Positions 6,932 through 53,847 of a stretch of DNA of 64,000 bases are shown one piece after another. The notes beneath the pieces were generated by a model that was not told the DNA's origin, did not search any database, and saw nothing but the letters and a program-made list of their open reading frames with translations. The stretch is taken from IMG/VR virus record IMGVR_UViG_3300047457_000974, positions 1 to 64,000 of that record, one strand, 5' to 3'. Both the position numbers and the translations under genes were made by a program. The stretch comes from a virus. Position 1 is the first letter of the stretch. The number at the start of each line of letters is the position of its first letter.

Positions 6932-7663
6932 GTGGCTCGGACGTACAAGCGTGATGCGAGTGGGCGGTTCGCCAGCGGTGGCGGCAGCTCCGGCGGCGGC
7001 CGATCGGGCGGCAAGGCCGTTGCAAAGTCCAAGCCTGCCAAGCGCTCCGCACCGAAGAGCACCAGCGCTCGCGGTCGTGCCTTGCAGAATCAACGCCGTG
7101 CCGCCGCATTGGTCAGTGCCAGCCGTGGTGGCAGGGGGCCCAGCGCTAAGGCGATCCGGTCCGTGCTGACCGCACAGCGTGCGAGGGCGTTCTATGCGGC
7201 GACCGGAGGCGGCAAGAAGCGTTCAGCGGTGAAGCCAGCAACGAAGAAGACCGCCAAGGCGACGGCGGCAGCGGTTCGGGCTAGGACAAAGGCTGGGAGT
7301 GGGGTGAAGGCGGCAGAGGCAAGGGCGAGGAGTTCGGGGCGGCCTAAGGCGAGGGTTGTGGCTAAGCCTGCAGCGCAGCGGCCGGCCCGCGAACCTAAGA
7401 CCAATTCTCAAATCCTTTCTCAGACTCGGCGGATCATCGAAAAGGCGTCAGCACGCAAGCAGGCTGCGCGGCTTTCTTATGTCGTAGCGAAAAACGAGCG
7501 TCGCATTGCGAGGGCAACTGCTGTTCGGCAGGCCATCCTGAATCCGCCTAAGCCGAAGAAGTCGCGGAAGCCTCGCGATCCGAACCACTTGACCCCAACA
7601 CAACTTGCAAACCGACGTTGGGCAGCGTCGATGAATGCGTGGAACCGTGGCATGGGCCGCTAA
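6932..7663 (+). CDS. MARTYKRD-family basic protein A
   Basis: A 243-residue, Arg/Lys/Ala-rich protein starting at GTG. Residues 1-18 (MARTYKRDASGRFASGGG) are shared with four other proteins of this window (12453, 13506, 18142, 19140). A Ser/Gly linker follows, then a module (STSARGRALQNQRRA, GPSAKAIRS, LTAQRARAFY) shared with the protein at 19140. The C-terminal ~80 residues are unique (LTPTQLANRRWAASMNAW). The strong positive charge suggests nucleic-acid binding. It lies between portal and MuF genes, so an internal virion protein is likely. I know no function for this family. Confidence 0.75.
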   Translation: MARTYKRDASGRFASGGGSSGGGRSGGKAVAKSKPAKRSAPKSTSARGRALQNQRRAAALVSASRGGRGPSAKAIRSVLTAQRARAFYAATGGGKKRSAVKPATKKTAKATAAAVRARTKAGSGVKAAEARARSSGRPKARVVAKPAAQRPAREPKTNSQILSQTRRIIEKASARKQAARLSYVVAKNERRIARATAVRQAILNPPKPKKSRKPRDPNHLTPTQLANRRWAASMNAWNRGMGR

Positions 7664-7700: not shown

Positions 7701-7856
7701 ATGACCCTCTACGAGGCCATCCGCGCCGCCATCGACGAAGCCACCAGCGAAGACGAAGAGATGAGCCTTCCCGAGTTGATCGGCACCCTGGAGCTGATCA
7801 AGGCTGAGCTGATCGCCGCTGCCCTGGAGCCTGACGACGAGGACGACGAAGAATGA
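7701..7856 (+). CDS. Small acidic protein preceding MuF
   Basis: A 51-residue, strongly acidic protein (MTLYEAIRAAIDEATSEDEE at the start, EPDDEDDEE at the end). The ATG follows a CCACCCACCACCC leader, the typical start context here, and the stop overlaps the MuF start as ATGA. A small assembly or chaperone role for the large neighbour is possible but not shown. No family recognised. Confidence 0.7.
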   Translation: MTLYEAIRAAIDEATSEDEEMSLPELIGTLELIKAELIAAALEPDDEDDEE

Positions 7857-10800
7857 CAATCACGCCAGGGCCACGACGCCTGGTTGGCGTCGCTGACGAT
7901 TACAGCAAGGCCCTGGATCAGCTGGAGCGCCGCGCCGTTGGCAATACCCGCGAGCTGCTGCGGCGCTCTCTGACCAATACGCTCGCCAGCCTCCGTCGGT
8001 CCTATGCGCTCTATCTGGAGGCGCTGGGCCCCATGAGCCGCGACCCATCCGGGCAGTTCATCCGCCGGCCGGGCAGCTACACCACCGCGGAGGCGACAGC
8101 GAAGTTCAGGGCGATCCTGGCCGATGCGCAGCGGTTCCTGCCCGACTGGGAGCTGGAGCAGTGGCGCATGCAGTACCAGGCCGATCTGCGGGAAGCCACC
8201 ACACTTGGCGTTGAACTGGCCAGCGAGCTGACGCGCATGCAGCGGGTGCCGGCACCAGCCCCAGGCATGGGGCCCACTACTCCCGGGCAGGTGCAGCAGC
8301 TGGGGCAGGAGCTGGTCGCCATGGCGCAGCAGCCACCGCAGGCCTCGCCGTTCGCTGGCGTCAACCCCGAGGCGGTGCGGGCCGCTGCCCTGCAGGCCAG
8401 CGCCATGATCCAGGGCGAGACGGCACGATTCCGCGATCAGATCGTGCAGATCGTCGGCGAGGGTGCATCCCGCGGCTGGGGCCCGAAGCGGCTTGAGCGC
8501 GACATCCGCCAGGCACTGGTCGGCGCTCGCGACCCGAACGGCATCACGAAGCGGTTGGGGCTGGAGCAACGGGCAGAGCTGATCGCCCGCAGCGAGCTGG
8601 CAGCGGCCTACTCCGGAGGGACGCTGCGCACCGCGCAGCAGCGGGGCATCGCCTACGTCAGGGTGATGGCCAGCAATGACGAGCGAACCTGCCCTACGTG
8701 TGCGGCGAGGAATGGCAGGGTCTATCCAGTTGATCGCGTGGCACTGCCGTTTCATCCGAGATGCCGCTGCGTTGCAGTCGAGGTGGAGAACGAGGCCGTC
8801 ACCGAGAAGGATCCTGCACTGCGCGCCACCCTGCTCGACTCCCAGCGCTGGCAGGACGAGCACGACCGCGGCGTTGAGGCCTATGCAGAGGCTCGGCACC
8901 AGGAGCGCATCGACGTGCTGCAACGGCAGGTGGACCGGGCCAAGGACGGCGACCAGAAGGATGCACTGAGCGCCCAGCTGCAGCAGCTGGTAGATCGCGG
9001 CCCAGACATGGTGAAGGCCCGGGCTGAATTGGCCCAGGCCTTGCGGACGCCTACCGCGAGCGAGCGGCGGCTATTTGGGAAGGATGCGAAACCGCTGCGG
9101 GAAAGCGTGCCACTGTTCGGTGGTGACGAGCCGCCCGCCGCCGCAGCACCGCCGCCACCGCCGGCACCTCGCAAGCCATCGGCGCCCCCGATGGCCCAAC
9201 GGGTCTCGCGCATGCGGACCTCGGACATCAGCGCCGATCCAGCCCGCTTTCAGTACAAGCTCAACGCCAACAGCGAAACCGGTGAAGTCGGCAGCCTGCG
9301 CGGCGTGCAGAAGTGGAACGAGGACCTGGCCGGCGTGCTCTCGGTATGGAAGGATCCAGCCGACGGCAAGACCTACGTCATCAATGGTCACAACCGGCTG
9401 GCACTGGCGAACAAGCTCGGCGCCAGCGAAGTGCCGGTGCTCAACATCGAAGCCAAGACGGCAGCAGAGGCCCGCGCGATCGGCGCCAAGCAGAACATCG
9501 CCAACGGCGATGGCACCGCGATCGATGCCGCCAAGTTCATGCGCGACACCGGTCAGCGCGCCAAGGACATGCTGGCCCAGGGCCTGAACCTCAAAGGCTC
9601 GGTGGCACGCAACGGCGCCGCGCTCGCGGACCTGCCCGACTTCATGTTCTCCGCCGTGGTGGACGGCCGCCTCTCGGTGGACCACGGCGCCGCCATCGGC
9701 CGCAGCGGCCTGACCCACGGCCAGATGGCAGACGCCTACAAGGTGCTGCAGAGCAAGCCATCGATGAGCGCAGCCACCTTGGACGAGGTGCTGCAGGCGG
9801 CCCGGGCCAGCAAGGCCCGCACGCGCGAGGAAGCAACCCTCTTCGGAACCAGTCAGGTAGAGACCAGCACCATGATCGAGCGGGCGGAGCTGGCCGCCAA
9901 GCTGCGCGCCGGGCAGAACCAAGAGATCAGAGTGCTTGACAAAGCCGCCGGCAAGGCTGATGTGCTGGCCGCCAAGGGCAACAGGATCGACGTGCAGCAG
10001 GCGCAGATCAGGGCAGCTGAGGCCCGCTCGCGTGCGGACGTGTTTGATCTGCTCAAGAACCAACCCAGCAGCGCCATCGCCAAGGCCCTGAACGATGCGG
10101 CGGCTGCCGTTCAGGATGCCCCAAACCGCGCGGCCAAGGCGCAGGCCACCAAGGACGGCAGCGCCCTGGTGAATGCCGCCATCGATCGCGAGCTGCGGCG
10201 CATGGCCGGCAGCAGCAAGGGCCTGCTGCTCAGCGTCGCCGACCTCAAGGCCAAGCGTGCCGGACAGCTCGCGCAACCGCCGGAGCTGGAGCTTGCGGCC
10301 AGGCCCGCGGATCTGACGCTCAGCAGGCTGCCGACGCGCCTGCTGGATCCCGCCACCGCCAAGGCCGGGTCCATCGGCTCCCTGCGACCCGATCAGGTGC
10401 GCGCTGATGCCGAGCGCTTCCAGTACAAGGCGGCAACAGACGCCAGGACCGGTGAGGTCGGCAGCCTGGAGGGCGTCAGCAAGTACGACCCGGCTCTTGC
10501 CGGCGTGATCAGCGTCTGGAAGGATCCAGCCAACGGGGAGACGTATGTCATCAATGGCCACAACCGACTGGCCGCCGCGAAGCGACTCGGCGCTGATGCC
10601 GTGAGCGTTCGCTATATCAATGCCGCCACTGCCGCTGATGCCAGGGCGATCGGCGCCTTGGCCAACATCGCCGAGGGCCAGGGAACGGCGATCGATGCCG
10701 CCAAGTTCATGCGGGAGAAGGGGTACACCGCTGCGGACATGCTGGCGATGGGCATACCGCTCAAGAAGGCTGCTGCGCGCGATGGCGCTAATCTCGCCAG

Positions 10801-11431
10801 CCTGCCGGATGACATCTGGTCTGCTGTCGTCAATGAAACGATCGGGATCGAAAAGGCCTCACAGATCGGCGGTGCTGGCCTCGACGCGCAGGGTATGCGG
10901 AATGTCGCCAGCGTCCTGGCCAGGCGCCCGAGCGCCAGTGCTGATGTCGTCCGGGAGCTGGTGGCTGCTGAGAAGGCGTCCATGCAGCAGGGGTCGACGA
11001 TGGAACTGTTCAACGACCCCGATGCGGAGCGCTTCAAGCTGAGCCGCGCGGATGTGACCCGTTCGATGCGCGATGAGCTGATGAAGGACAAAACCCTGTT
11101 CAGCACACTGGCTACCAGCAGGGCCGCTCAGGCACTGGAGAAAGCTGGCAGCCAACTGGACACCGCAGCGAATCGCCAGGCGTCCGCCGAGGTTGAGCGT
11201 GTGCTGAGCGTCTTCGATCAGATGAAGAACCTATCCGGCCCCGTTGGGCAGGCTCTGGATCGTGGCGCCAGAGAGATCATGGGCGCCCGCAACGCACAGG
11301 AGCGACTGGAGATTCAGCGCCGACTCAGGGGTGAAATATCAGGCGCTGTTCAGGAGGTGCTGAGCGTGATACCTGGTGGTCAACCACCGCCACCACCGGA
11401 AGCGCCAGGGCAGTCATCACTGTTCGGTTGA
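7853..11431 (+). CDS. MuF head protein fused to two ParB-like units (polyvalent-type protein)
   Basis: A 1192-residue protein. Residues 1-310 are the MuF/SPP1 gp7-like head morphogenesis part. Its conserved end shows paired cysteines and a Cys/His/Arg motif (RTCPTCAARNGRVYP near 280, then PFHPRCRC). A Pro-rich linker follows. Two long related units then start near residues 457 and 843. Each opens with RFQYK and EVGSL, carries a ParB-type YVINGHNRLA motif (near 509 and 899), then AIDAAKFMR and a helical tail. MuF proteins sit inside capsids, and such fusions are known as polyvalent proteins thought to enter the cell with the DNA. The ParB units could act on host DNA or nucleotides. The C-terminus ends with a short polyproline run and SLFG. 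Confidence 0.88.
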   Translation: MTITPGPRRLVGVADDYSKALDQLERRAVGNTRELLRRSLTNTLASLRRSYALYLEALGPMSRDPSGQFIRRPGSYTTAEATAKFRAILADAQRFLPDWELEQWRMQYQADLREATTLGVELASELTRMQRVPAPAPGMGPTTPGQVQQLGQELVAMAQQPPQASPFAGVNPEAVRAAALQASAMIQGETARFRDQIVQIVGEGASRGWGPKRLERDIRQALVGARDPNGITKRLGLEQRAELIARSELAAAYSGGTLRTAQQRGIAYVRVMASNDERTCPTCAARNGRVYPVDRVALPFHPRCRCVAVEVENEAVTEKDPALRATLLDSQRWQDEHDRGVEAYAEARHQERIDVLQRQVDRAKDGDQKDALSAQLQQLVDRGPDMVKARAELAQALRTPTASERRLFGKDAKPLRESVPLFGGDEPPAAAAPPPPPAPRKPSAPPMAQRVSRMRTSDISADPARFQYKLNANSETGEVGSLRGVQKWNEDLAGVLSVWKDPADGKTYVINGHNRLALANKLGASEVPVLNIEAKTAAEARAIGAKQNIANGDGTAIDAAKFMRDTGQRAKDMLAQGLNLKGSVARNGAALADLPDFMFSAVVDGRLSVDHGAAIGRSGLTHGQMADAYKVLQSKPSMSAATLDEVLQAARASKARTREEATLFGTSQVETSTMIERAELAAKLRAGQNQEIRVLDKAAGKADVLAAKGNRIDVQQAQIRAAEARSRADVFDLLKNQPSSAIAKALNDAAAAVQDAPNRAAKAQATKDGSALVNAAIDRELRRMAGSSKGLLLSVADLKAKRAGQLAQPPELELAARPADLTLSRLPTRLLDPATAKAGSIGSLRPDQVRADAERFQYKAATDARTGEVGSLEGVSKYDPALAGVISVWKDPANGETYVINGHNRLAAAKRLGADAVSVRYINAATAADARAIGALANIAEGQGTAIDAAKFMREKGYTAADMLAMGIPLKKAAARDGANLASLPDDIWSAVVNETIGIEKASQIGGAGLDAQGMRNVASVLARRPSASADVVRELVAAEKASMQQGSTMELFNDPDAERFKLSRADVTRSMRDELMKDKTLFSTLATSRAAQALEKAGSQLDTAANRQASAEVERVLSVFDQMKNLSGPVGQALDRGAREIMGARNAQERLEIQRRLRGEISGAVQEVLSVIPGGQPPPPPEAPGQSSLFG

Positions 11432-13505: not shown

Positions 13506-14021
13506 TCAGCCCTTCCCGCCACCCATCCGGGTAGCGCGACGTGCAAACCGTGCGGCACTTCTAGCCGCCTTATACGCAGCCTTGGCATTGGTCGGCGCAG
13601 CTTTCGACCGGAAACGCTGAGTGCGCTCAGCCTGAGCCTTTGCGTTACGGCGCTGCTGGGTCTTGGTGCCTGATTTGCCGCCACGTGGGCCGCGTCGCCT
13701 GTCCATGGCCGCTGCGGCAGAACGTGCTGCCGCCTTAGCCGTCACTGCGGCGGCACGACGAGCGGCCTTGCTGCCCTTGCCTGCCGCACCATCACGCTCT
13801 GCCTGCGCATTCCGATTCTGAGCCTTGATGTATCGCTCTCGCTGCGGGTTGCGCTTGCCCTTGCCGCTGAGCATTGAGCTGCTGACCTCACGATTCATCG
13901 CCTGCTTCCTGGCTGCCACCGTGCCGCCCGATTTCCTCCCGCCGCTCCTGCCGCCGCCGGATCCACCGCCACCGCCTCCGGCAAAACGGCCGTTGGAGTC
14001 TCGTTTGTAGGTGCGAGCCAT
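13506..14021 (-). CDS. MARTYKRD-family basic protein C
   Basis: A 171-residue basic protein starting at the ATG at 14021. The tag MARTYKRDSNGRFAGGGGGG begins it; sequence upstream in the same frame is not family-like and was excluded. A middle part rich in Arg/Ala/Lys is followed by the module GPRGGKSGTKTQQRRNAKAQ and PTNAKAAYK shared with the proteins at 12453 and 18142. Here that module is C-terminal, whereas in the other two it follows the tag directly, so modules have been shuffled. Function unknown. Confidence 0.75.
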   Translation of the reverse strand: MARTYKRDSNGRFAGGGGGGSGGGRSGGRKSGGTVAARKQAMNREVSSSMLSGKGKRNPQRERYIKAQNRNAQAERDGAAGKGSKAARRAAAVTAKAAARSAAAAMDRRRGPRGGKSGTKTQQRRNAKAQAERTQRFRSKAAPTNAKAAYKAARSAARFARRATRMGGGKG

Positions 14022-14081: not shown

Positions 14082-14591
14082 ATGCCGGCGCCAATTCCGA
14101 CGCTCAACCCACTGTGGCGGCCCAATGGCAGCAGCGCCCGCGACGATCGCGAGCTGATCAGGGGCTATGCCATGTGGCCGGTCTCGGCCTACAACCTGAC
14201 GCAACTGACAACGGTGCTCAACCGCGTTGCCGATACCTCCGCAGCAACCGTCAAGCAGGTGCAGGCCTGGATTGATGAGATCGAGAACCTGGAGCAGGAC
14301 TGGTCGGACAAGGTGGCTGATGGCACCGCTCATCTCGGCAACGTGCAGCGCTACCGCGGCCCGGCGCCTAGTACCACGCTGACCCGTGATGATCTGCGCA
14401 AACGCGCAGACGTGCTGGAGTGGGATACAAGCCTGCTGCAGGTGGAGTACGAAAGCGGCGGCAGGCCTGATGCCACCGCTGGCGGCACGATCTCGAACCG
14501 GATTGCGCAGCTCAAAAGCCGGATCCTGGAGACGATTGGCATCAAGGCCAGCGATCGCTCCGGCGGGCAGGCAACACTGGTGCGCAGCTGA
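14082..14591 (+). CDS. Hypothetical neck/connector protein
   Basis: A 169-residue protein, helical in the middle (NLTQLTTVLNRVADTSAATV, WIDEIENLEQDW). It is the first gene of the neck and tail cluster; its stop overlaps the next start (TGATGG). Position suggests a head-tail connector or joining protein, but no conserved family signature is visible. The start follows CCCTGCCACC. Confidence 0.6.
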   Translation: MPAPIPTLNPLWRPNGSSARDDRELIRGYAMWPVSAYNLTQLTTVLNRVADTSAATVKQVQAWIDEIENLEQDWSDKVADGTAHLGNVQRYRGPAPSTTLTRDDLRKRADVLEWDTSLLQVEYESGGRPDATAGGTISNRIAQLKSRILETIGIKASDRSGGQATLVRS

Positions 14592-15567: not shown

Positions 15568-16290
15568 ATGCCAGAGCTTCCGTTTCAGGTTGCGCCGAAG
15601 CGACGCACCGAGATGATTTCGGTAACTATTGATGATGACACCTATAGTCTTGAGTTTCCTGTTTACCGCAGCCTTCGCGCTGGCGAAGAAATCCAGATTC
15701 GCGATGCAGATTATCAGGCCGCTGTCTATCGCGAATGCTCGCGATTTGCTGATGCGCTTGTCAATGAGGGCATTGAGGAGTTATACGCTCAGCGACTTGC
15801 TATCCGCTGCTTGAGCACCAGGCTGGGTATCCCCATCTCGCTGACTGCGGAGGAGCATCGCGCATTGTTGCGCCATGCCGCCATGGTGGCCGACATTCAG
15901 TCGGTTCTGGCTGCCGAATACGCACGGCAGGTGCGACGCACCGTTACCGCGCTGATTGCCCATCGCCTGCCCGGGTGCAAGGGCTGGACTGAGGATGACA
16001 CTGATCGCGCCGTACCTGGTCCGCTGCGGGACGCGATTGCTGCATTCGCTGATCGTGAGCGCAATGCCAATCAGCCGCAACGCACGCCGGAAGAAATGAT
16101 CGAATCCATGGCTGAAACGCTGGGAAAGCTCGGGCCGGAACCATGCCGAAACCCACCGACTGGACAGCTATCTACTGGCGCTGCCGAGAGCTCTGGCCAG
16201 CTGCTCCTGAGTTCGGACCCGATCGATTCGCATCCCTCCCCGTCAACTACATCCTCGCTGCCATTGAAGCCGGCACCCGCCGAGAGTTGA
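15568..16290 (+). CDS. Tail assembly chaperone G
   Basis: A 240-residue protein with a beta-rich N-terminus (MISVTIDDDTYSLEFPVYRS) and a helical rest. Residue ~187 coincides with an in-phase G GGA AAG slippery heptamer at 16122. The residues after that point are Ser/Pro-rich and look like read-through of another frame. This is the G part of a G/GT pair. The short form ends at 16290; the long form continues in the -1 frame to 16787. Such chaperones bind the tape measure protein and recruit tail tube subunits. Here the tail tube gene follows at 17030. Confidence 0.75.
   Translation: MPELPFQVAPKRRTEMISVTIDDDTYSLEFPVYRSLRAGEEIQIRDADYQAAVYRECSRFADALVNEGIEELYAQRLAIRCLSTRLGIPISLTAEEHRALLRHAAMVADIQSVLAAEYARQVRRTVTALIAHRLPGCKGWTEDDTDRAVPGPLRDAIAAFADRERNANQPQRTPEEMIESMAETLGKLGPEPCRNPPTGQLSTGAAESSGQLLLSSDPIDSHPSPSTTSSLPLKPAPAES
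16122..16128 (+). promoter_or_regulatory. -1 programmed frameshift site GGGAAAG
   Basis: The heptamer reads G GGA AAG in the frame of the gene at 15568, the same slippery sequence used in lambda G/GT. After a -1 slip the reading passes through GCT CGG GCC GGA ACC ATG into the 16143 frame without a stop. The fusion would be about 406 residues. No clear downstream pseudoknot was identified. Confidence 0.75.
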
Positions 16291-16787
16291 CACTGCTGCA
16301 GGATGCAGAGCGGCCGATCGCCTACCTCCATCAGCGGCTGATCGCGGTCAACTCCACCGCCGATGGCCCGCCGGTGCCGTCACTCGATGACCTGTGCCTC
16401 TACCGCATCCGTGAACCAGGCGACGCACCACCGGCTGAAGCTGGCGCGGCGATGCTGGCGCTGATCCGTGCGCAGCAGTTCCCCGGCTGGGCGCTGACGT
16501 TCTATGAGGCGCTGGAAGCCGTCGGCCGCGATCAACCGCCACCGCCAACCCTGGCCCTGGTGGCAGAGGATGCAATCCTGCTGGCGCCGCGGTTCACGCC
16601 GGGCGGCTGGCAGGGATTCCTGATCGCGGAGGGTCCGGCGGCAGGTCAGCCGCGGGCGTTCTATCCGCCGAATCAACCGGAGGCGATGACGTGGCTCGCA
16701 GTGCCAGCCGCTCCTGAGCCAGGCGCAGTGTGGGCGGCGGCATCTGCATCTCTGCCCACTCTGCCGCCTCCCGGTAGCAGCGATTGA
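16143..16787 (+). CDS. Tail assembly chaperone T extension (G-T fusion C-terminal part)
   Basis: This frame encodes MPKPTDWTAIYWRCRELWPA and a further ~195 residues. It is open upstream to the slippery site, so the likely product is the C-terminal part of G-T rather than a free protein, although the ATG at 16143 has the common ACC-ATG context. The WxxIYWRCREL pattern resembles T domains of tail chaperones. It would contact the tail tube protein during tail polymerisation. The last ~190 bases overlap a leftward AP2-like gene. Confidence 0.7.
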   Translation: MPKPTDWTAIYWRCRELWPAAPEFGPDRFASLPVNYILAAIEAGTRRELTLLQDAERPIAYLHQRLIAVNSTADGPPVPSLDDLCLYRIREPGDAPPAEAGAAMLALIRAQQFPGWALTFYEALEAVGRDQPPPPTLALVAEDAILLAPRFTPGGWQGFLIAEGPAAGQPRAFYPPNQPEAMTWLAVPAAPEPGAVWAAASASLPTLPPPGSSD

Positions 16788-16926: not shown

Positions 16927-17005
16927 GGCTTGCGACAGGTAGCTGCCGTCAGTATTCCGGCCCTGTTGTCAAGCCATGGGGCCGGCTTGTGAGATCGGGA
17001 CTTCT

Positions 17006-17863: not shown

Positions 17864-18082
17864 CTAGGGCTCTGCATTGGCCCCTGCCGGTTCGCCGGTG
17901 GGGGCCTTTTGCCGCGGCAGCGTGGCGCGTGCCTGCGCCATGGCGTAAGCGCGTTGGGCGATGCCCCAGTCCAGGATGGTATGCGCGATGCGACGCAGTG
18001 CCTCCACGTCACCGGGGCCTGCCTGTTCAATCAGCCGTCTCCATTTCTCATGGCTCAGTTGTTCATGCAATGGCAATGGCAT
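17864..18082 (-). CDS. Small hypothetical protein overlapping a terminator
   Basis: A 72-residue protein (MPLPLHEQLSHEKWRRLIEQ at the start; DVEALRRIAHTILDWGIAQR). It resembles short helical proteins of cyanobacteria and their phages, without a name I can give. Its last ~15 codons lie inside the terminator of the tail tube gene on the other strand, so both functions share the same DNA. The ATG at 18082 is preferred over one further upstream. Confidence 0.55.
   Translation of the reverse strand: MPLPLHEQLSHEKWRRLIEQAGPGDVEALRRIAHTILDWGIAQRAYAMAQARATLPRQKAPTGEPAGANAEP
17879..17910 (+). terminator. Strong rho-independent terminator with TTCG loop
   Basis: A 12-bp stem (GGCCCCTGCCGG pairing with CCGGTGGGGGCC, including two G-T wobbles) closes a TTCG tetraloop and is followed by TTTT. 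It lies 18 bases after the tail tube stop. Confidence 0.85.
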
Positions 18083-18141: not shown

Positions 18142-19119
18142 ATGGCCCGGACCTACAAGCGAGACAGTCGTGGGCGGTTCACCTCTGGTGGCGGAGGTGG
18201 CGGAGGTGGCGGATCTGGTCGCAGCCGTAAGACACCAAAAACCAGTATCGATGGACGACGCGGGCCTCGTGGTGGCAAATCAGGTACCAGGGCGGAGCAA
18301 GCACGAGCGAAACGTGAGCAGCAGGCCAGAAGCCAGCAATTCAGAAGCAAGGCTACGCCAACAACAGCAAAGCTGGCTTACAAGAAAACACAAGGCGAAG
18401 CACGCAAAGCAGCCAAGGCTGCCACGAGCAGGGCAAGCCAGCGTCGCTCAAATCCAGCGGCAAAACGTGCTCGGGACATGGCAAACAGGACTGGTACGGC
18501 CAAAGGCAGGTTTTACGAGGATGGGCAGACTCGGACAACAATGAGTTTGGCTCAACTGCGATCTGCCGTTCGTGGTTACGCCAGATCACAAGGAGTTAAT
18601 AACAGGCAAGACTTCTTAGAGCAGGTATCGCTAGCCGCTAACTTGACGCGAACAGGCGCCAGGGGCATGGCTGAAGGACGAATGCCAAAAACTCGCGGTG
18701 AGTGGGAGCAAATCTATAAAACTTTGGTTCGCGTTCCTGATTACACCAGAGGGCAAAAGCAACGTCGTGGAATGGTCAACGGTATTGACATTCACAGAGA
18801 TTTCAGGCCATGGGCTGTATTCGGCCTGAATCCCAAAACAGCAACCGCACAGGATGTCAGAAACAGGTTCCGCAAGCTAGCGATCAAGGTTCATCCTGAC
18901 ACTGGCGGCAGCGCCAGGGATTTCGAGCGGCTGAAGCAGATGCGCGATTCGATGTTGGCATTCAGGCCAGCATCAAAGACAGCCGGCAGCAGCAGGCGCC
19001 GCAGCAAACAGGCTGCATCGGCATCACCTGCTGCAACCGGGCCGATCAATAGCCAGCGATTGTTGCCGCCATCACGCACCACTAAGCCGCCGCGCAGACG
19101 TCGCAAGCCGGCAAGCTGA
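18142..19119 (+). CDS. MARTYKRD-family protein D with C-terminal J domain
   Basis: A 325-residue protein. Residues 1-22 are the tag (MARTYKRDSRGRFTSGGGGG). The module GPRGGKSGTRAEQARAKREQ and PTTAKLAYK follows, as in the proteins at 12453 and 13506. A unique middle part (about 110-215) precedes a DnaJ-like segment at about 221-275: AVFGLNPKTATAQDVRNRF, then RKLAIKVHPDTGG with the HPD tripeptide after a basic helix. J domains stimulate Hsp70 ATPase, so recruitment of host DnaK to virion assembly or to injected DNA is possible. The 3' half is more AT-rich than the 5' half. A 23-base start region is shared with the next gene. Confidence 0.8.
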   Translation: MARTYKRDSRGRFTSGGGGGGGGGSGRSRKTPKTSIDGRRGPRGGKSGTRAEQARAKREQQARSQQFRSKATPTTAKLAYKKTQGEARKAAKAATSRASQRRSNPAAKRARDMANRTGTAKGRFYEDGQTRTTMSLAQLRSAVRGYARSQGVNNRQDFLEQVSLAANLTRTGARGMAEGRMPKTRGEWEQIYKTLVRVPDYTRGQKQRRGMVNGIDIHRDFRPWAVFGLNPKTATAQDVRNRFRKLAIKVHPDTGGSARDFERLKQMRDSMLAFRPASKTAGSSRRRSKQAASASPAATGPINSQRLLPPSRTTKPPRRRRKPAS

Positions 19120-19139: not shown

Positions 19140-20111
19140 GTGGCCCGAACCTACAAGCGAGACAGCCGCGGACGGTTCGCGGGCGGGGGAGGATCCAGCG
19201 GCGGCGGCAAGAAGGCATCAGGCGGGAAGCGGAGCGGTCCGAAGACCACCAGCGCCAGGGGAAGGGCACTGGCCAATCAGCGACGGGCAGCGGTGCAGGT
19301 TCGAGCGAACCGCGGCGGCACGGGGCCGAGTGCGAGAGCTGTTCGATCGATGCTCACGGCTCAGCGAGCACGGGCGTTCTATGAATCGACCGGGACCGGC
19401 ACGAAGCGATCGGCCATGCGGGCGGTAAGCAGCACGGCAAAGGCCAAGGCCGCACGGGCAGAGACGCGGGCGAAGCGGCAGGCAGTGAGGGAGAATGCGG
19501 CGAAGCGACCGAAGGCGCAGGCAGTGGCAAAAACGACATCACGGCGGTTGAGCGGTATGGGCCGAGCGCCTGCGACGAGGCTGCCAGCCGCAAACTCTGA
19601 CGCATACAAATACAACAAGTCCGGCTTCATTGCCACCCCACAGGAAAGAGCACGGATGCGCGGCAGGGATCGCGCTCGTGAAAAGAACGCTGCTCTCGCG
19701 CAGCAACAAGCAGCAGGAGAACTTAGGGCGGAACGTCGAGCTGCAAGAAAGATGACATCAGATCGCACAGAGATTATGAGCGTGCTTCGCCACTCGCCAA
19801 CGTTCAACGCGGCCGAAAGATTTATGCAGCGTTTTGCTAAGCGAGTTGACGAAAACTTTAGACAGGGCGTTCAGCTTGAACGCCAAAAGTCGGCATTGAC
19901 GGCCAAGGCGATCAAGATGCAGCAAAAAGCAGCAGAGCGAAAAGCTCAGGGCAAAAAGATTACTCAGACCATGGAATCAAACTTTCAGCAGCTCAGGCAG
20001 CAGATTGCCAAAATTGACAGAAGTTTGACAACGCGACGTAGGGCGATGGATGTTTTCCGCAGCCAGTCTCGGCGCGTGACGATCAACACCAGAGAGCGCA
20101 GCAGGTACTGA
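19140..20111 (+). CDS. MARTYKRD-family basic protein E
   Basis: A 323-residue protein starting at GTG with tag MARTYKRDSRGRFAGGGGSS. Residues ~35-85 repeat the module of the protein at 6932 (TTSARGRALANQRRA, GPSARAVRS, LTAQRARAFYESTG). The C-terminal ~140 residues are charged and probably coiled coil (QLERQKSALTAKAIKMQQKA, NFQQLRQQIAKIDRSLTTRR). The upstream 15 bases and the start are nearly the same as for the gene at 18142, which suggests gene duplication followed by exchange of the C-terminal part. Position before the tail terminator and tape measure genes supports a virion role. Confidence 0.75.
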   Translation: MARTYKRDSRGRFAGGGGSSGGGKKASGGKRSGPKTTSARGRALANQRRAAVQVRANRGGTGPSARAVRSMLTAQRARAFYESTGTGTKRSAMRAVSSTAKAKAARAETRAKRQAVRENAAKRPKAQAVAKTTSRRLSGMGRAPATRLPAANSDAYKYNKSGFIATPQERARMRGRDRAREKNAALAQQQAAGELRAERRAARKMTSDRTEIMSVLRHSPTFNAAERFMQRFAKRVDENFRQGVQLERQKSALTAKAIKMQQKAAERKAQGKKITQTMESNFQQLRQQIAKIDRSLTTRRRAMDVFRSQSRRVTINTRERSRY

Positions 20112-20134: not shown

Positions 20135-20563
20135 ATGCCCCTCCCCGCCACCGCTCAAGCTCTTCACGACCTGCTGGCGGCTGATCCGATCATCAGCGCT
20201 GGCCTCGGCACCTACACGTTCGCCAACGGCTCGCAGATCCCGGCGATCGCCGTGCTGTTCGGCAATGAGCACCTGCCGCCTGGTACCACGGTCAACGGCG
20301 TGGAGGTAACGATCACAGCCCTGCCCGGTTACGGCTCACAGCCGCTGCTGACGTTCGAGACGCTGCTGAATCCAACCTGGCGGATCTACATCGCCGGTTG
20401 GCAGTCGGCCGCCACCCTGCAGGCCATTGCGCAGCGGGTGATCGCCATCCTGCCTGGCGCTACCGCATCGGCGCCAACACCAGATCCACCCGGTGAAGGC
20501 ATGGGGGTAATCGATCAGATCGTGGTGGCGTGGACCAATCCTGTTGCATCTGTGGAGGCTTGA
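20135..20563 (+). CDS. Possible tail terminator protein
   Basis: A 142-residue protein with an N-terminal helix (ATAQALHDLLAADPIISAGL) and a beta-rich centre (LLNPTWRIYIAGWQSAATLQ) typical of tail terminator/gpU-like folds that cap the tail tube. It lies just before the tape measure gene. Family identity is not certain. Confidence 0.5.
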   Translation: MPLPATAQALHDLLAADPIISAGLGTYTFANGSQIPAIAVLFGNEHLPPGTTVNGVEVTITALPGYGSQPLLTFETLLNPTWRIYIAGWQSAATLQAIAQRVIAILPGATASAPTPDPPGEGMGVIDQIVVAWTNPVASVEA

Positions 20564-20566
20564 TCA

Positions 20567-23500
20567 ATGGCGGACTACACCATCACGCTTGATGCCGATC
20601 CTCAGCAGGTGCTGCAGGCATTCCGGCAGATTGAGCAAAATGCGCAACGTACTGGGCAGGTCATCGGCGAGCGCTTCGGCGAGGGCGTCAAGAGGTTTTC
20701 CACGGAATCGCTGGCTGGCATGCAGGCCGAGCTGAACCGCCTCCAGCAACGGCAGCTCACCGTCGGTGTCAACACCGCAGCGTTTGACAAGCTCGGGCAG
20801 CGGATCAATGAGGTTCGAGCGCAGCTTGATGCTGCTAGCCGCAAGCAGCTGTCGATCGGTGTAGACGATCGATCTGTGACGGCATTGCAAGCTCGCCTTT
20901 CAACACTGCAGGGCGAGCTGAACCGCGTTGCCATCGGCAGCAAGCGATTCCGAGAGCTGCAGGATGCAGTTGAAGCCACCAATCGCGAGCTGGCCAAGGC
21001 CGGCGAAAGCGCCGATGGGTTTCGCCTCCTGGATGGCGTCGTAGAGGGCATCGGCATTGGCATCACCAACTCCGTATTGGGTGCCGCCAGTGCTGCGGCC
21101 AATGCGCTGCAGGGCCTGGTGATGGACTACGCCCGGCTCGATACCGAGTTACGGCAGGCTGCAGCCGCAGACGGCACTGCCGGCGCCTATGACAAAATCG
21201 CCAGCGCGGTCGATCGTGTTGGCATCGAGGCCGCCGGCAGCACTCAGGACGTTGCCGCATTGGCTACTGAGCTGATTCGTGGTGGCATGACCGCCGATCA
21301 GGTTGGCGCATCACTGGGCGATATTGTCCGAGGCGCGGAAGCCACTGGCACGGCCTACGCCGCAATGGGCTCCAATGTATCGGCAGCGCTCAAGGGTTTC
21401 GGCCTGGCTGCCAGTGATGCCCGCCGCGTGGTGGACGCAATGGTGACCGGTGCCAATGCTTCCGCTACCAGCGTGGAAGGCATGGGCATGGCGTTCAAGT
21501 ACGCCGCGCCAGTAGCAAAGATCCTGGGTGTTTCAATCGAGGACCTGGGTATTGCCGTGGGGTTGCTCACTAATGCTGGTATCGATGCGTCAGAAGCTGG
21601 CGTGACCCTCCGTAATGGCCTATCGAAGCTGGCCAGCGCTGCACCGCAGGCAGCAGGTAGCACTCAGCAGCTGTCCGGACAAGCCGCGGATGCTGCGCGA
21701 GCAATGCGCAGCCTTGGTGTCAATATCTATAACTCAAACGGCACCCTAAAGCCCATGCGCGAGACACTGCTTTCGCTCAAGGGTGCATTTGACAAGCTAG
21801 GGCCATCAGCCAAAATCCGCCTTGCTGCAAGCCTTTTCGGCGGCGAGGATGACGGCACAAAATGGCTTGCATTGCTCAATCAAAGCAATGAAGAGATCAT
21901 CAAGATGTCTGACACTATGAGCAATACAGGCGGTGCAACCGATAAAGCTCGCGATGCAATGCAGGGCTTTGAGATGTTGACGAAACAAATCAGCGGAACA
22001 ATCGGTAGCCTGGGCAATGTACTGGGAAAGGTTACCGTTGCTGCGCTAACGCCTTTTGTGCAGGTGGCCAATATCTTGCTCGGCGTGATGTCATCACTAC
22101 CGGGTCCGGTTAAAGACCTGATCGCTGGAATGGTGCTGCTTACTGGTGGTGTCATCGCAGCTACGGCTGCTACGGTGATCTATCAGCGTGTGATGGCATC
22201 AGCTATAGCGCAAAAGTCTATCGCTGAAGTCACAGCACTTGCAAGTGCTTTTCGCACACAGCTCAGCGGTGGCATTACGGCAGCGGCGTCAAGGCTGCCG
22301 ATGTTGATTGGTGGCCTGACAAACCTGCTGCTGCGCATGGGATATGTGATCCTCGCGTACAACCTGTTCAAGGCAGTTACCGGCGCCAATGAAAGAGTTG
22401 GCAAAGGATTTGCCGAGCGACTTGCCGAAACAAAGAAAGCCCTAGAAAGTATCACACCAGCAGCGGAAAAGGCCGGCAAAGCACTTGATGGCAGCGTAAA
22501 GGTTGACGGAGTAGAGCAGTTTCGTAGTGATATGCGGAGCTTCTTCGATATTGTCGGCAACTTTTCTCGCGCCGCTGATCTCAACACCATACGGGATCAA
22601 ACAGCGCAGCTTCAATCTGCATTTGACGGGGTACAGGACTCTGCAATGCAGACTTTCGAGGCGCTGAAAAATGCAACCACTCTCACAGGAGAGCAACGCA
22701 AAGATCTAGGCGATCGCATCAAGGCGCTTGAGGCCATCAGCATTCAAGCCGATGCACAGGCAAAGGCGTATCGCACGCTTGCCCAGGAATATCGTGCAGC
22801 AGGTAGAGCTGCAGAAGCCAAAATTGCAACAAATAATGCCAACGCCATGCAAGCAGAGGCTGAAGTAGCAAATCGCCTGATTATCGGATTGAGAGAAATC
22901 GCAGTTCGCACCGAGGGCGCAGCTGCAGCGTCCGAGCAGTTCATGACTGTAACCGAACGTCTCACGGAGGCTACGCGTGCGCGCATCGCTGCCGAATCGC
23001 AGATCAGCAGAATCGATCAACAACTCTCTATTGGTAAAGCCATGCTGGAGATCAGCAAGGCAATGACCGAATCCGATCAATCGCGATTCAATATCAATAA
23101 AGCCAGCTTGGATCTTGAAATTAAACAGGCTCAGTCACGTGGCGCTAGTGAAGGCGCCATCGAAGCCATTAGATTGCGCATGGCCAGCAACGATCGCCAA
23201 TCGCTTTCTGCTCGCTATCGAGCGCTTGTCGATGAGCAACGGATGCAAGCAAGTCTGCTTGAGCTAGAGCAAGCAAGAGAGACTATCTCTAAGCGCATGG
23301 AGCTCGGCGATCTTAGAAAAGAAAGACTTAAAGCGGAACAAGAGCTGCAGAAAGCCGCCTCCAATAATGAGAAGAAAGATATTGAGCTGAACATTGAACG
23401 GCTAGAAGCGCAGATTCAGCTCAGGGAAAGCGATATTCGGCTGCTGGAGCAAACACAGCCCATTCAGCGGCGCATCGCCGCCATTCAGGCTGAAACCGCA

Positions 23501-42258: not shown

Positions 42259-43593
42259 ATGGAGCCTGCGGTAATCATCGGCTACGCGAGGGTGAGCAGC
42301 GACGAGCAGGCCGATGCGCTGCCTGCCCAGATCAGCCGCCTGGCCAGCGCCGGCTGCACACGGCTGATCAGCGACATTGAATCTGGCCGCAGCAATGACC
42401 GCGATGGCCTGCTGGCGCTGATGGCCATGGTTCGAGCTGGCGAGGTTCGAGAGGTGGTGGTCGATCGGATGGATCGGCTAGGCCGCGATGCCGCCTATAC
42501 CGATGCGCTGCTGGCTGAGTGTGGCGCGCATGGCGTGACCGTGAGGGCACTGGTGGGCGGCGTGATCGAGACGACTACGCCTCAGGGGTTTTTGATGGCT
42601 CGGCTGCAGACCAGCTTGGCCGAGATGGAGTCCCGTATGTTGAGTTTGCGCATCCGCCGGCAATTCACGATCTATCGAGCAGAAGGTCGCCATCTGCGTC
42701 GTCGCAAGCCGTTTGGCTATTGCAATGGTCCAAATCATCGCTTAGCACCGGATCCGGACCAGTGGTCAGAAGCGCTGCAAATCTTGCAGGAACTGCGGAT
42801 GATCGGGTCATTTTCTGGGGTGGCGAGCCGTCTGCCGAACTGGTGCAGCTGGACTCCAGCACCGGGCAGCTTGCAGAACTGGTTCTGCAACCCCGTCATC
42901 CGCGGGCACATCGGCCATCACCTCGACAGGCGGTCTGGCCGTGGTTGGCAGCAGCGCTGGGGTGAGATCCGCCGCGATCAGCATCCGCCGTTGATCACAG
43001 ATGCGGACTGGCACGATCTGGCGGCAATGCTGCGCCGGCCGCGCAACCGGTTTCTGGGCGGCGGCAACACCGAAACCCGCCATGGGCTGACCGGACTGTT
43101 GCGTTGCTGTTGTTGCGGCCACCTGCTGCGGCGCAATAGCTCTGCGGGAGTGGTCTGGTGGCGGTGCCGCCATCGGTTGTGCCAGGACCGCGGGGCGATT
43201 CGGGAAACGATTGTGCTGCCGGTTGCTGTGAGTGCGTGTGCGCAGGAGGCACGGCGACTAGCCCAGTTGGCTGCAGCACCGCAATCGACCGATCCGGAAG
43301 TAGCGGCAATGGTCGCAGAGCTAGAGTTAATGCAACAGATGTCGGCGCGCAATCCCGGCAATCGCGCCATGGCTGCAGCAGTGGCGGAACAGCAGCAACG
43401 AATTGACGCCATACAACAAAGCGACCACCAGCCGGCAAGCCCGGAGGTAGTCGCGATGTTGCAGGATCCTGCGTTTTTTACCGGGGCGACACCGGAGCAG
43501 CAACGGGTGTTGTTTGCGGCGGTTTTGTCGTCGTTGTCGATCGGTCGCGGTGTTGTTGCCTCCATTCAGGCTCGAAATCTCGCAACCGGCTGA
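42259..43593 (+). CDS. Serine site-specific recombinase (integrase/resolvase family)
   Basis: A 444-residue large serine recombinase. The catalytic N-terminal domain (1-140) has IIGYARVSSDEQADALPAQ with the nucleophile Ser, DIESGRSNDRDGL, and VVDRMDRLGRD. The Recombinase domain follows (RRKPFGYCNGPN), then a zinc ribbon (LLRCCCCGHLLRR ... RCRHRLC) and a helical C-terminus. It resembles cyanobacterial XisF-type enzymes. It would integrate and, with a directionality factor, excise the phage. It is rightward while its neighbours are leftward. Confidence 0.9.
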   Translation: MEPAVIIGYARVSSDEQADALPAQISRLASAGCTRLISDIESGRSNDRDGLLALMAMVRAGEVREVVVDRMDRLGRDAAYTDALLAECGAHGVTVRALVGGVIETTTPQGFLMARLQTSLAEMESRMLSLRIRRQFTIYRAEGRHLRRRKPFGYCNGPNHRLAPDPDQWSEALQILQELRMIGSFSGVASRLPNWCSWTPAPGSLQNWFCNPVIRGHIGHHLDRRSGRGWQQRWGEIRRDQHPPLITDADWHDLAAMLRRPRNRFLGGGNTETRHGLTGLLRCCCCGHLLRRNSSAGVVWWRCRHRLCQDRGAIRETIVLPVAVSACAQEARRLAQLAAAPQSTDPEVAAMVAELELMQQMSARNPGNRAMAAAVAEQQQRIDAIQQSDHQPASPEVVAMLQDPAFFTGATPEQQRVLFAAVLSSLSIGRGVVASIQARNLATG

Positions 43594-52040: not shown

Positions 52041-52254
52041 CTCGCATCTGCTGTAGCAGCCGCTCAGCGGCCTCCAGCACCCACGGCAGCTCCTCGGGAT
52101 CCAGCTCGATCTCCTGATCTTCCTGCTGCAGGCGGATGAAGAAACCGCCGGCTCGATCGCCGGCCAGTTGCACCTTGACGGCCTTGTAGCTCAGGGGATC
52201 GTCCGTGGCCGAATGCACGGCGATGTCCGTGATGGTGGTGCGATGCTCAGCCAT
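52030..52254 (-). CDS. Small hypothetical protein after the beta clamp gene
   Basis: A 74-residue acidic protein (YKAVKVQLAGDRAGGFFIRL, LDPEELPWVLEAAERLLQQM). The start overlaps the dnaN stop by 8 bases. No family recognised. Confidence 0.6.
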   Translation of the reverse strand: MAEHRTTITDIAVHSATDDPLSYKAVKVQLAGDRAGGFFIRLQQEDQEIELDPEELPWVLEAAERLLQQMRDAS

Positions 52255-53362
52255 TGCGCACCTGCACCGGCATCACCAGGTACTGGAAGCCCGAATCGTC
52301 CTCCACCGGCTCCAGCACGACCGGTGCGGTGGCTGCGTTGGCCTGCAGGACAACCTGATCGGCGCCGATCGCCTTCAGCCCCTCCAGCAGGTAGCGCACG
52401 TTGAACGCAATCGTTTCGGCCTCGCCAGTGATCACCGCAGCCAGCGACTCGGACCCGCGGCCCAGTTCCTGTGCATCGGCGCGGACGGTCACCTGGTTCC
52501 GGTCGGGGTCAATGGTCAGCTTCACCACGTTGTTGTGCGGATCAGCCAGTACCGCGACCCGATCCAATGCCGCCAGCAGCGTCCGGCGGTTGATCACGAT
52601 GCTGCGGCTGAAGCCACCGGGGATCAACTGCCGGTAGTTGGGATAGGTGCCCTCCAGGATCCTGGTGGTGAGCAGCCTGTCGCCGCTGATCAGCACCGCC
52701 TGGCCCTTGTCGGCGAACAGCTGCAGGCTGCCGCCGTTGCCGCCCAGCAGACGCTCCAGCTCTCGCAGCGACCGGGCGGGGATCGTCAGCTTCAGATCAC
52801 CGCCGCTGCTGGAGACGGTCAGCACCGCCAGGCGGTGGCCATCGGTGGCGGCACACTCCAGACCATCGGCACTGAGCTGCAGATGCACACCAGTGAGCAG
52901 CTGCTTCGACTCGTCGCTGCTGCTGGCGAACAGGGTGGAGCGCAGCCCCGCCAGCAGGGCAGCCGCATCGATGGTGATCGGCGCGCCGGTCTGCTGCAGC
53001 GGCAGGTCGGGATAGTCGCTGGCCGGCATGCCCCGCAGCTCGTAGCTGCCGGACAGGCTGGTGAGCGTCGCCGTATCGTCACTGGCCGTCAGTGTCACCG
53101 GCGCAGCATCCGGCAGGCGCGACACGATGTCCCCCAGCAGACGGGCCGGCAGGGTGATGCTGCCGCTGGTTTGCACCGCGGCGGCGATGCTGGTCTGGAT
53201 GCCGAGTGACAGATCGAAGCCCGTCAGGCTCAGCCGGCCGGTGGCGGCATCGGCGGTGAGCAGCACGTTGGCCAGCACCGGATGGGTGGGGCGGCTGGAG
53301 ACGGCACGGCTGACGATCTGAAGGCTGGCGCTGAGTTCGGCCTGGGAGGTGGTGAGTTGCAT
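52247..53362 (-). CDS. dnaN: DNA polymerase III beta sliding clamp
   Basis: A 371-residue protein of full bacterial clamp length with three repeats. Signatures are VSRAVSSRPTHPVLANVLLT, DYPDLPLQQTG, AATDGHRLAVL, EGTYPNYRQLIP and the C-terminal YLVMPVQVRNG. It encircles DNA and tethers polymerases. Most phages borrow the host clamp, so an own copy is notable. ATG 53362 (MQLTTSQAELSASLQIVSRA) overlaps the ssb stop. Confidence 0.93.
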   Translation of the reverse strand: MQLTTSQAELSASLQIVSRAVSSRPTHPVLANVLLTADAATGRLSLTGFDLSLGIQTSIAAAVQTSGSITLPARLLGDIVSRLPDAAPVTLTASDDTATLTSLSGSYELRGMPASDYPDLPLQQTGAPITIDAAALLAGLRSTLFASSSDESKQLLTGVHLQLSADGLECAATDGHRLAVLTVSSSGGDLKLTIPARSLRELERLLGGNGGSLQLFADKGQAVLISGDRLLTTRILEGTYPNYRQLIPGGFSRSIVINRRTLLAALDRVAVLADPHNNVVKLTIDPDRNQVTVRADAQELGRGSESLAAVITGEAETIAFNVRYLLEGLKAIGADQVVLQANAATAPVVLEPVEDDSGFQYLVMPVQVRNG

Positions 53363-53847
53363 CAGAACGGCACCTCGCTGGCATCGAAACCATTGGCTGC
53401 AGGCGCCGGGCTGGCCTGCCATACCGGCGCTGCTGCGGTTGCGTTACCGGAGCCGGCTGGAGCGGCAGGAGCCGGGGCCTGGCCTGCAGGCTGGCCGGCC
53501 TGGCGCAGCACGCGCCACGTCTCGGCTTTGATCACGAGCGCCACCTTTGGCTCACCATCACGGGTGGTGTACTGCTCGCTTTTGACGCGGCCGATCACCT
53601 CCACCAGGTCGCCGCGGTGGGCGTTGTCGCCGAAGGCTTGAGCCTCTTCGTTCCAGAGCTCAACCTTGAACCAGTCGGTTTTGTCCTTCTCGTCACGCTT
53701 GGCATCAGGCCAGCTGATCGCCATGCGGGCATTGCAGACGGAGCTGCCGGACTCAAAAAATCGCAGCTCGGGCTCGGCGCCGAGCCGCCCGACAAACCGG
53801 TGCGACTCGGACCGCGCCACTGTGGCGAGGATTTCAATGGCTTTCAT
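53362..53847 (-). CDS. ssb: Single-stranded DNA-binding protein
   Basis: A 161-residue SSB. The OB fold spans residues 1-110 (FVGRLGAEPELRFFESGSSV, WFKVELWNEEAQAFGDN, LVEVIGRVKSEQYT). A flexible Gly/Ala/Pro linker ends in DASEVPF, an acidic tip like that of bacterial SSBs which binds partner proteins. ATGA overlap with the RecT-like gene. Confidence 0.9.
   Translation of the reverse strand: MKAIEILATVARSESHRFVGRLGAEPELRFFESGSSVCNARMAISWPDAKRDEKDKTDWFKVELWNEEAQAFGDNAHRGDLVEVIGRVKSEQYTTRDGEPKVALVIKAETWRVLRQAGQPAGQAPAPAAPAGSGNATAAAPVWQASPAPAANGFDASEVPF

Follow-up and report, generated by a model that had tools for sequence, protein, structure and literature searches.

Genomic setting of the J-domain gene

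The window, the stretch of 64,000 nucleotides analysed here out of the 66,208 of its virus record, carries a phage structural region in which a tagged, very basic J-domain protein is encoded between the genes for the major tail protein and the tape measure, with the MuF gene 6.7 kb upstream. The first part of this region runs from TerL through a sigma factor and the portal to a tagged protein (6932), the MuF protein (7853) and two minus-strand tagged genes (12456 and 13506). There follow ORFs at 14082 ('neck', a label taken from gene position), 14591, 15058, 15568 and 16143, the tail protein at 16976, a minus-strand ORF at 17864 and the J protein at 18142. Beyond it lie a tagged gene at 19140, an ORF at 20135, the tape measure at 20567 and, later, the scaffold (29757) and the major head protein (30604). 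The features at issue are as follows.

6932..7663, plus strand: tagged protein, between portal and MuF
7853..11431, plus strand: MuF minor head protein, 1192 aa
12456..13178, minus strand: tagged protein (MARTYNRD)
13506..14021, minus strand: tagged protein, 171 aa
18142..19119, plus strand: tagged J-domain protein, 325 aa, with the N-terminal start MARTYKRDSRGRFTSGGGG
18142..18195, plus strand: N-terminal tag MARTYKRDSRGRFTSGGG of the J protein, common to four other window products
18247..18426, plus strand: basic linker of the J protein, containing a stretch RRGPRGGKSGT...QFRSKATPTTAKLAYKK that recurs in the tagged protein 13506-14021
18457..18681, plus strand: conserved pre-J region, residues ~106-180, from alignment A3 and the model, with no fold assigned
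18682..18990, plus strand: J module, residues 181-283, comprising the pre-J motif 'W..Y...V.VP...R....NGIDIH..FRPWAVFGLNP', helix II, HPD and helix III
18892..18900, plus strand: HPD codons, inside the J module
19140..20111, plus strand: tagged protein adjoining the J gene, 323 aa

For TerL, the portal and the major head protein, the closest isolated relative is Cyanophage PSS2, a phage of Prochlorococcus, and the nearest isolates for TerL and the portal also include the Synechococcus phages S-CBS2 and S-CRES1-3. A cyanobacterial host, which the earlier note had assumed, is likely because these nearest isolated phages infect Prochlorococcus or Synechococcus.

Elsewhere the window holds a PAPS reductase-like gene (756-1940), a serine recombinase (42259-43593; Resolvase, E 3.8e-28), which is a possible sign of a temperate life, and a phage-borne DNA polymerase III sliding clamp with all three Pfam domains (52247-53422, minus strand). 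Directly before the tail protein gene, ORFs 15568-16290 and 16143-16787 overlap by 148 bases and are possibly a tail-chaperone pair; in one relative (L003) the first of the two encodes fewer residues (192 aa) and shares 4 bases with the second. The MuF protein (7853-11431) includes at residues 458-736 a fused module with ParB-like PHROG matches.

A J domain at the C-terminal end of a basic protein

The J domain is the part of a co-chaperone that recruits the Hsp70 chaperone; in DnaJ proper it is N-terminal, and class A proteins add a CXXCXGXG zinc centre. The product of 18142-19119 lacks these class A and class B features. Its J domain is C-terminal, at residues ~219-275 of 325, with HPD at 251-253 and the stretch RFRKLAIKVHPDTGG at residues 242-256 inside the domain. 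The translation has no cysteine, a computed pI of 12.0 and 24% lysine plus arginine.

The Pfam DnaJ model (PF00226) matches residues 227-265 with E=3e-5 and 24.5 bits, which for the window protein alone lies under the gathering score of 27.8, and the match spans only part of the model. All ten members of the relatives' alignment match PF00226 individually (best 2e-7), and among 14 records of relatives 12 match, nine of them over the cut-off. Searched against the Protein Data Bank, a family profile of ten relatives found J domains as its strongest matches (best 2.2e-6). The full-length AF2 model, built on five sequences and with a mean pLDDT of 61.8, reaches block means of 77-91 across residues 231-270, where a helix at 236-250, the HPD loop and a helix at 258-273 form the helix II-loop-helix III hairpin on which the earlier note had made its reading depend. 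VIA-align placed this model on xRbj with Z 8.8 (rmsd 2.6, 71 aligned) and on the J domain of E. coli DnaJ in its complex with DnaK (5nro) with Z 7.5 (rmsd 2.0, 56 aligned); a further model, restricted to residues 106-283 and built on 10 sequences (mean pLDDT 69.7), gave Z 9.0 and 7.3, respectively. A BFVD search returned mostly J domains, with a best E of 5e-3 and no match below 0.001. The DnaJ-like segment with HPD and a basic helix that had been read from the letters is thus borne out by the family profile and the predicted structure alike, and it is nearly certain that the protein carries a real J fold. The structure searches barely probed the pre-J part, for which a helix-turn-helix was considered and rejected, Pfam HTH_31 appearing in only two of ten members (E 0.12).

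Residues Y25, K26 and R27 of DnaJ lie in the basic helix II, which contacts Hsp70. The positions aligned to Y25 and K26 are aromatic and basic in all 11 sequences compared, and that aligned to R27 is basic in nine of the 11, the exceptions being Ser in L019 and Glu in L073.

Relatives and conservation of the module

Beyond the window, scans with successive alignments found the ~100-residue J module in 17 viral contigs, several of them near-duplicates, and HPD is intact in all 18 module-carrying records, the window included. The J-region dN/dS is 0.11-0.17 in the four of six pairs that yielded a dS, indicating purifying selection; dS was saturated and gave no value in the other two, as in two of six pre-J pairs. 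These patterns bear on whether the domain could be a passive structural or DNA-condensing J fold that has lost its Hsp70 function. The pI of 12, the richness in lysine and arginine and the partial coverage of the Pfam model would suit such a fold, but the presence of HPD in 18 of 18 records and the retained character of the helix II positions (11 of 11 for Y25/K26, nine of 11 for R27) argue against it, and we consider it very unlikely.

No Hsp70 gene was found in any of the 12 phage records searched for one, so that a working J domain would use the host DnaK. As far as sequence can indicate, recruitment of host DnaK fits the conserved HPD, the basic helix II and the missing phage Hsp70.

A DNA pattern for FRPWAVF picked out 29 stretches. 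Nine of the 27 scanned with the A3 profile hold the module, one of them in a new record, and the two outside that scan are already known carriers (L018, L022). Two contig scans of bacterial and archaeal genomes gave no relatives, a result of little weight for lytic phages, and 50,697 phage records held only remote J proteins and no close relative of the module. The records of L010 and L012, which may be fragments, contain tagged genes with no J match. PADLOC returned no match for the J proteins. The record of L024 encodes a second small J protein (L066 4826-5308; 160 aa) with HPDLGG, which lies outside the window family.

Shared tags and exchangeable cores

MARTYKRD starts occur five times in the window against 0.07 expected, which bears out the tag after which the earlier note had named the protein. 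One tag is found on five otherwise different basic proteins (6932, 13178(-), 14021(-), 18142 and 19140), and the corresponding protein set in other phages bears a different one. All 37 tagged ORFs tallied across records have computed pI values of 11.0-12.0; the tag pattern caught 40 rows, from which three were dropped as MuF proteins (L009, L012 and window 7853) that have RDPSGQF close to their N-terminus. The tag may be a capsid-targeting element, a protease signal or a duplicated sequence.

Three tag groups can be told apart among the relatives: MARTYKRD...GRF (window, L003, L026, L028), M.RG..RTQYVRD..G[RQ]F with close variants (L019-L024) and ...AAAKKGWETRRRGG (L018). In each of the seven records compared, the tag that opens the J protein is the one borne by the other tagged proteins of that phage. 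The first 40 residues of the J protein score a median of 118.5 (range 94-190; 14 pairs) against tagged proteins of the same record, and a median of 47 (maximum 67; 59 pairs) against those of other tag groups, in a comparison of 21 proteins from seven records chosen from the loci, with L003, L017, L028 and near-duplicates left out. Behind these tags, and near-duplicates aside, the J cores of the tagged relatives are 46-61% identical to that of the window. The J core of L003 and L017 is preceded by the 136-aa tag and linker of the 19140 homologue, whereas in the window the two belong to separate genes. The occurrence of the same core behind differing tags, together with the swap in L003 and L017, implies that core and N-terminus are exchangeable and that each phage uses its own tag.

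Linker residues 36-75 of the J protein are 60% identical over 40 aa to L009's copy of the 13506-14021 protein, and the C-terminal part of the 6932..7663 product recurs in L023 behind another tag (61% over 97 aa). That the J module is kept while tags and accompanying domains change suggests that it may accompany the proteins that the virus delivers.

Gene position and a second phage group

Mapping of 13 relative loci placed the J gene by the major tail protein or tape measure in two (L003, L017), before a homologue of 14082 in two (L026, L028), before a homologue of 14591 in six (L019, L021, L022, L023, L034, L025), beside the portal in one (L018) and downstream of portal and MuF in two (L072, L073). 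The gene is confined to the structural region, without a fixed tie to tail genes.

Host chaperones aid the assembly or replication of other phages, and an assembly co-chaperone, made late, bringing host DnaK to new tail, neck or head proteins and staying in the cell, would suit the window, L003 and L017, where the gene stands between those for the major tail protein and the tape measure. Most other relatives have the gene immediately ahead of genes for the neck or for head completion, which is also consistent with such a role. The gene's place nevertheless shifts among the 13 loci, and the fusion to a zeta toxin in one relative (L073, below) is ill-suited to a pure assembly factor. Moreover, neither tag nor J module was found in the searched part of PSS2 (first 50 kb) or in the whole of S-CBS2, so that such phages can do without the J protein. 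Assembly in this broad sense is a possible reading that we hold to be rather doubtful. The narrower proposal of the earlier note, a dedicated part in tail assembly, is less likely because the tail-gene position is not conserved. A tail assembly chaperone of the lambda G/GT type was rejected, its fixed slot being kept in only two of the 13 loci.

The two loci with the J gene after portal and MuF belong to phages whose portal family differs from that of the window. In L072 the MuF protein was confirmed and the nearest isolate by portal is Synechococcus phage S-CBS4; for L073, Phage_portal_3 and MuF were matched on genes of the same contig in L048. The J proteins that follow MuF have 351 aa in L072 and 705 aa in L073, and the latter carries a Zeta_toxin fusion, for which the 673-aa part present in L048 gave E 5e-24. 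Large proteins come next (L072 9383-19806, L073 9401-15294), with a common CTTGYxCGxTCI...C motif and, in one, LPD1. Residues 458-736 of the window MuF protein match the large protein beside the J module, at 49% in L072 and 47% in L073. By these matches, two cyanophage-like groups with different portals have two modules in common, and the window carries one of the two fused to MuF.

The difference in portals, set beside these identities, suggests exchange between the groups, for which the J-module tree gives no basis. That tree, built without Rctr41k, is weakly resolved: L072 and L073 group with the window at a support of 72/71, and a tree constrained to join the window with L026 and L028 was not rejected (p-AU 0.096). 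The MuF-adjacent second group and the zeta-toxin fusion favour the other proposal of the earlier note, that the protein acts on injected proteins.

A proposed role in protein delivery

The reading that we tentatively prefer, at somewhat less than an even chance, is that the window protein is a class III-like J co-chaperone of tagged, probably injected basic proteins, recruiting host DnaK for the delivered proteins. The tagged, very basic proteins would be made late, be built into the particle by way of the tag and reach the host together with the DNA, passing unfolded through portal and tail. The J domain would then recruit host DnaK, which would pull in, refold or protect the J protein and its co-delivered partners. 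It counts against packaging by the tag that the tags may have arisen by duplication and homogenisation and play no part in targeting.

To our knowledge, the refolding of phage-injected proteins after passage through a narrow tail is an open question. The presence of a J domain in a tagged set here, and its fusion to a zeta toxin elsewhere, points to the host Hsp70 as a refolding helper.

Comparison with known systems

Phage J-domain proteins are already known, among them Rki of RB43, the DnaJ encoded by a moraphage (PMC12619734) and gp60 of AXL3. Rki (gp057w) is described as an HPD J-domain protein that works with host DnaK and stabilises sigma-32 (PMC3486835), and DnaJ is reported to lose its coupling to DnaK when the histidine or aspartate of HPD is altered (PMC12169576; PMC3486835). 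Its J domain is N-terminal, with the HPD histidine at residue 38, whereas that of the window protein is C-terminal, and the alignment of the two, over 81 of 103 residues, has 26% identity (E~1). Unlike the window protein, Rki is, as far as its description goes, without a shared tag or a structural neighbourhood (PMC3486835).

Rki nonetheless provides a working precedent for host takeover or counter-defence, in which the J domain would divert DnaK/DnaJ, as in the case of sigma-32, or blind a chaperone-dependent defence such as bNACHT25, which is described as requiring DnaJ with working DnaK coupling (PMC12169576). The lack of a phage-own Hsp70 in all 12 records is compatible with this, but nothing found links the tag to such a role, and the free-standing J proteins in three isolated cyanobacterial phage records lie outside the structural region. 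Takeover or counter-defence is accordingly regarded as unlikely. The free-standing phage DnaJ-like proteins (Ssp-JY39, AXL3 gp60) have a J domain, like the window protein, and are short; they are encoded in recombination or replication modules, unlike the window gene. Among those of cyanobacterial phages, two adjoin a Bet/RecT recombinase gene and one has genes for an endonuclease and a recombinase-family protein nearby. The 'molecular chaperone' of Synechococcus phage Ssp-JY39 is 39.6% identical to the window protein over ~50 residues, about half of the module. A J module of the structural region that is tagged, changes its tag and is fused to a zeta toxin was not met in the literature searched, which left out most subscription journals.

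With the polyvalent and MuF-associated proteins described by Iyer et al. (2017; PMC5512222) the relatives share a setting by portal and MuF (L072, L073), a zeta-toxin fusion and LPD1 and ParB-like neighbours; domains of this kind are described there as belonging to proteins that are injected along with the DNA. Polyvalent proteins combine at least two disparate effector domains, whereas the window protein has one recognised domain and the L073/L048 protein two (J and zeta toxin). According to the authors, polyvalent proteins are few in cyanobacteria, and their main text nowhere uses the words DnaJ, J-domain or J domain (PMC5512222). A J-domain part, unmentioned there, would be an addition to the injected-protein repertoire.

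Delivery with the help of host DnaK also invites comparison with Tim14/Pam18, the J-protein component of the import motor in mitochondria, with which the window protein has the J fold in common (Z 7.2-7.4, the fold alone being compared). Tim14/Pam18 is membrane-anchored and eukaryotic. A more specific version of the preferred delivery role, speculative and in our judgement improbable, is that a particle-borne tagged J module, handed on between phages and taking on the tag of each, would dock host DnaK at the point of protein entry and drive import and refolding, as a bacterial counterpart of the mitochondrial motor. If DnaK does pull proteins in, Tim14/Pam18 would serve as its functional model.
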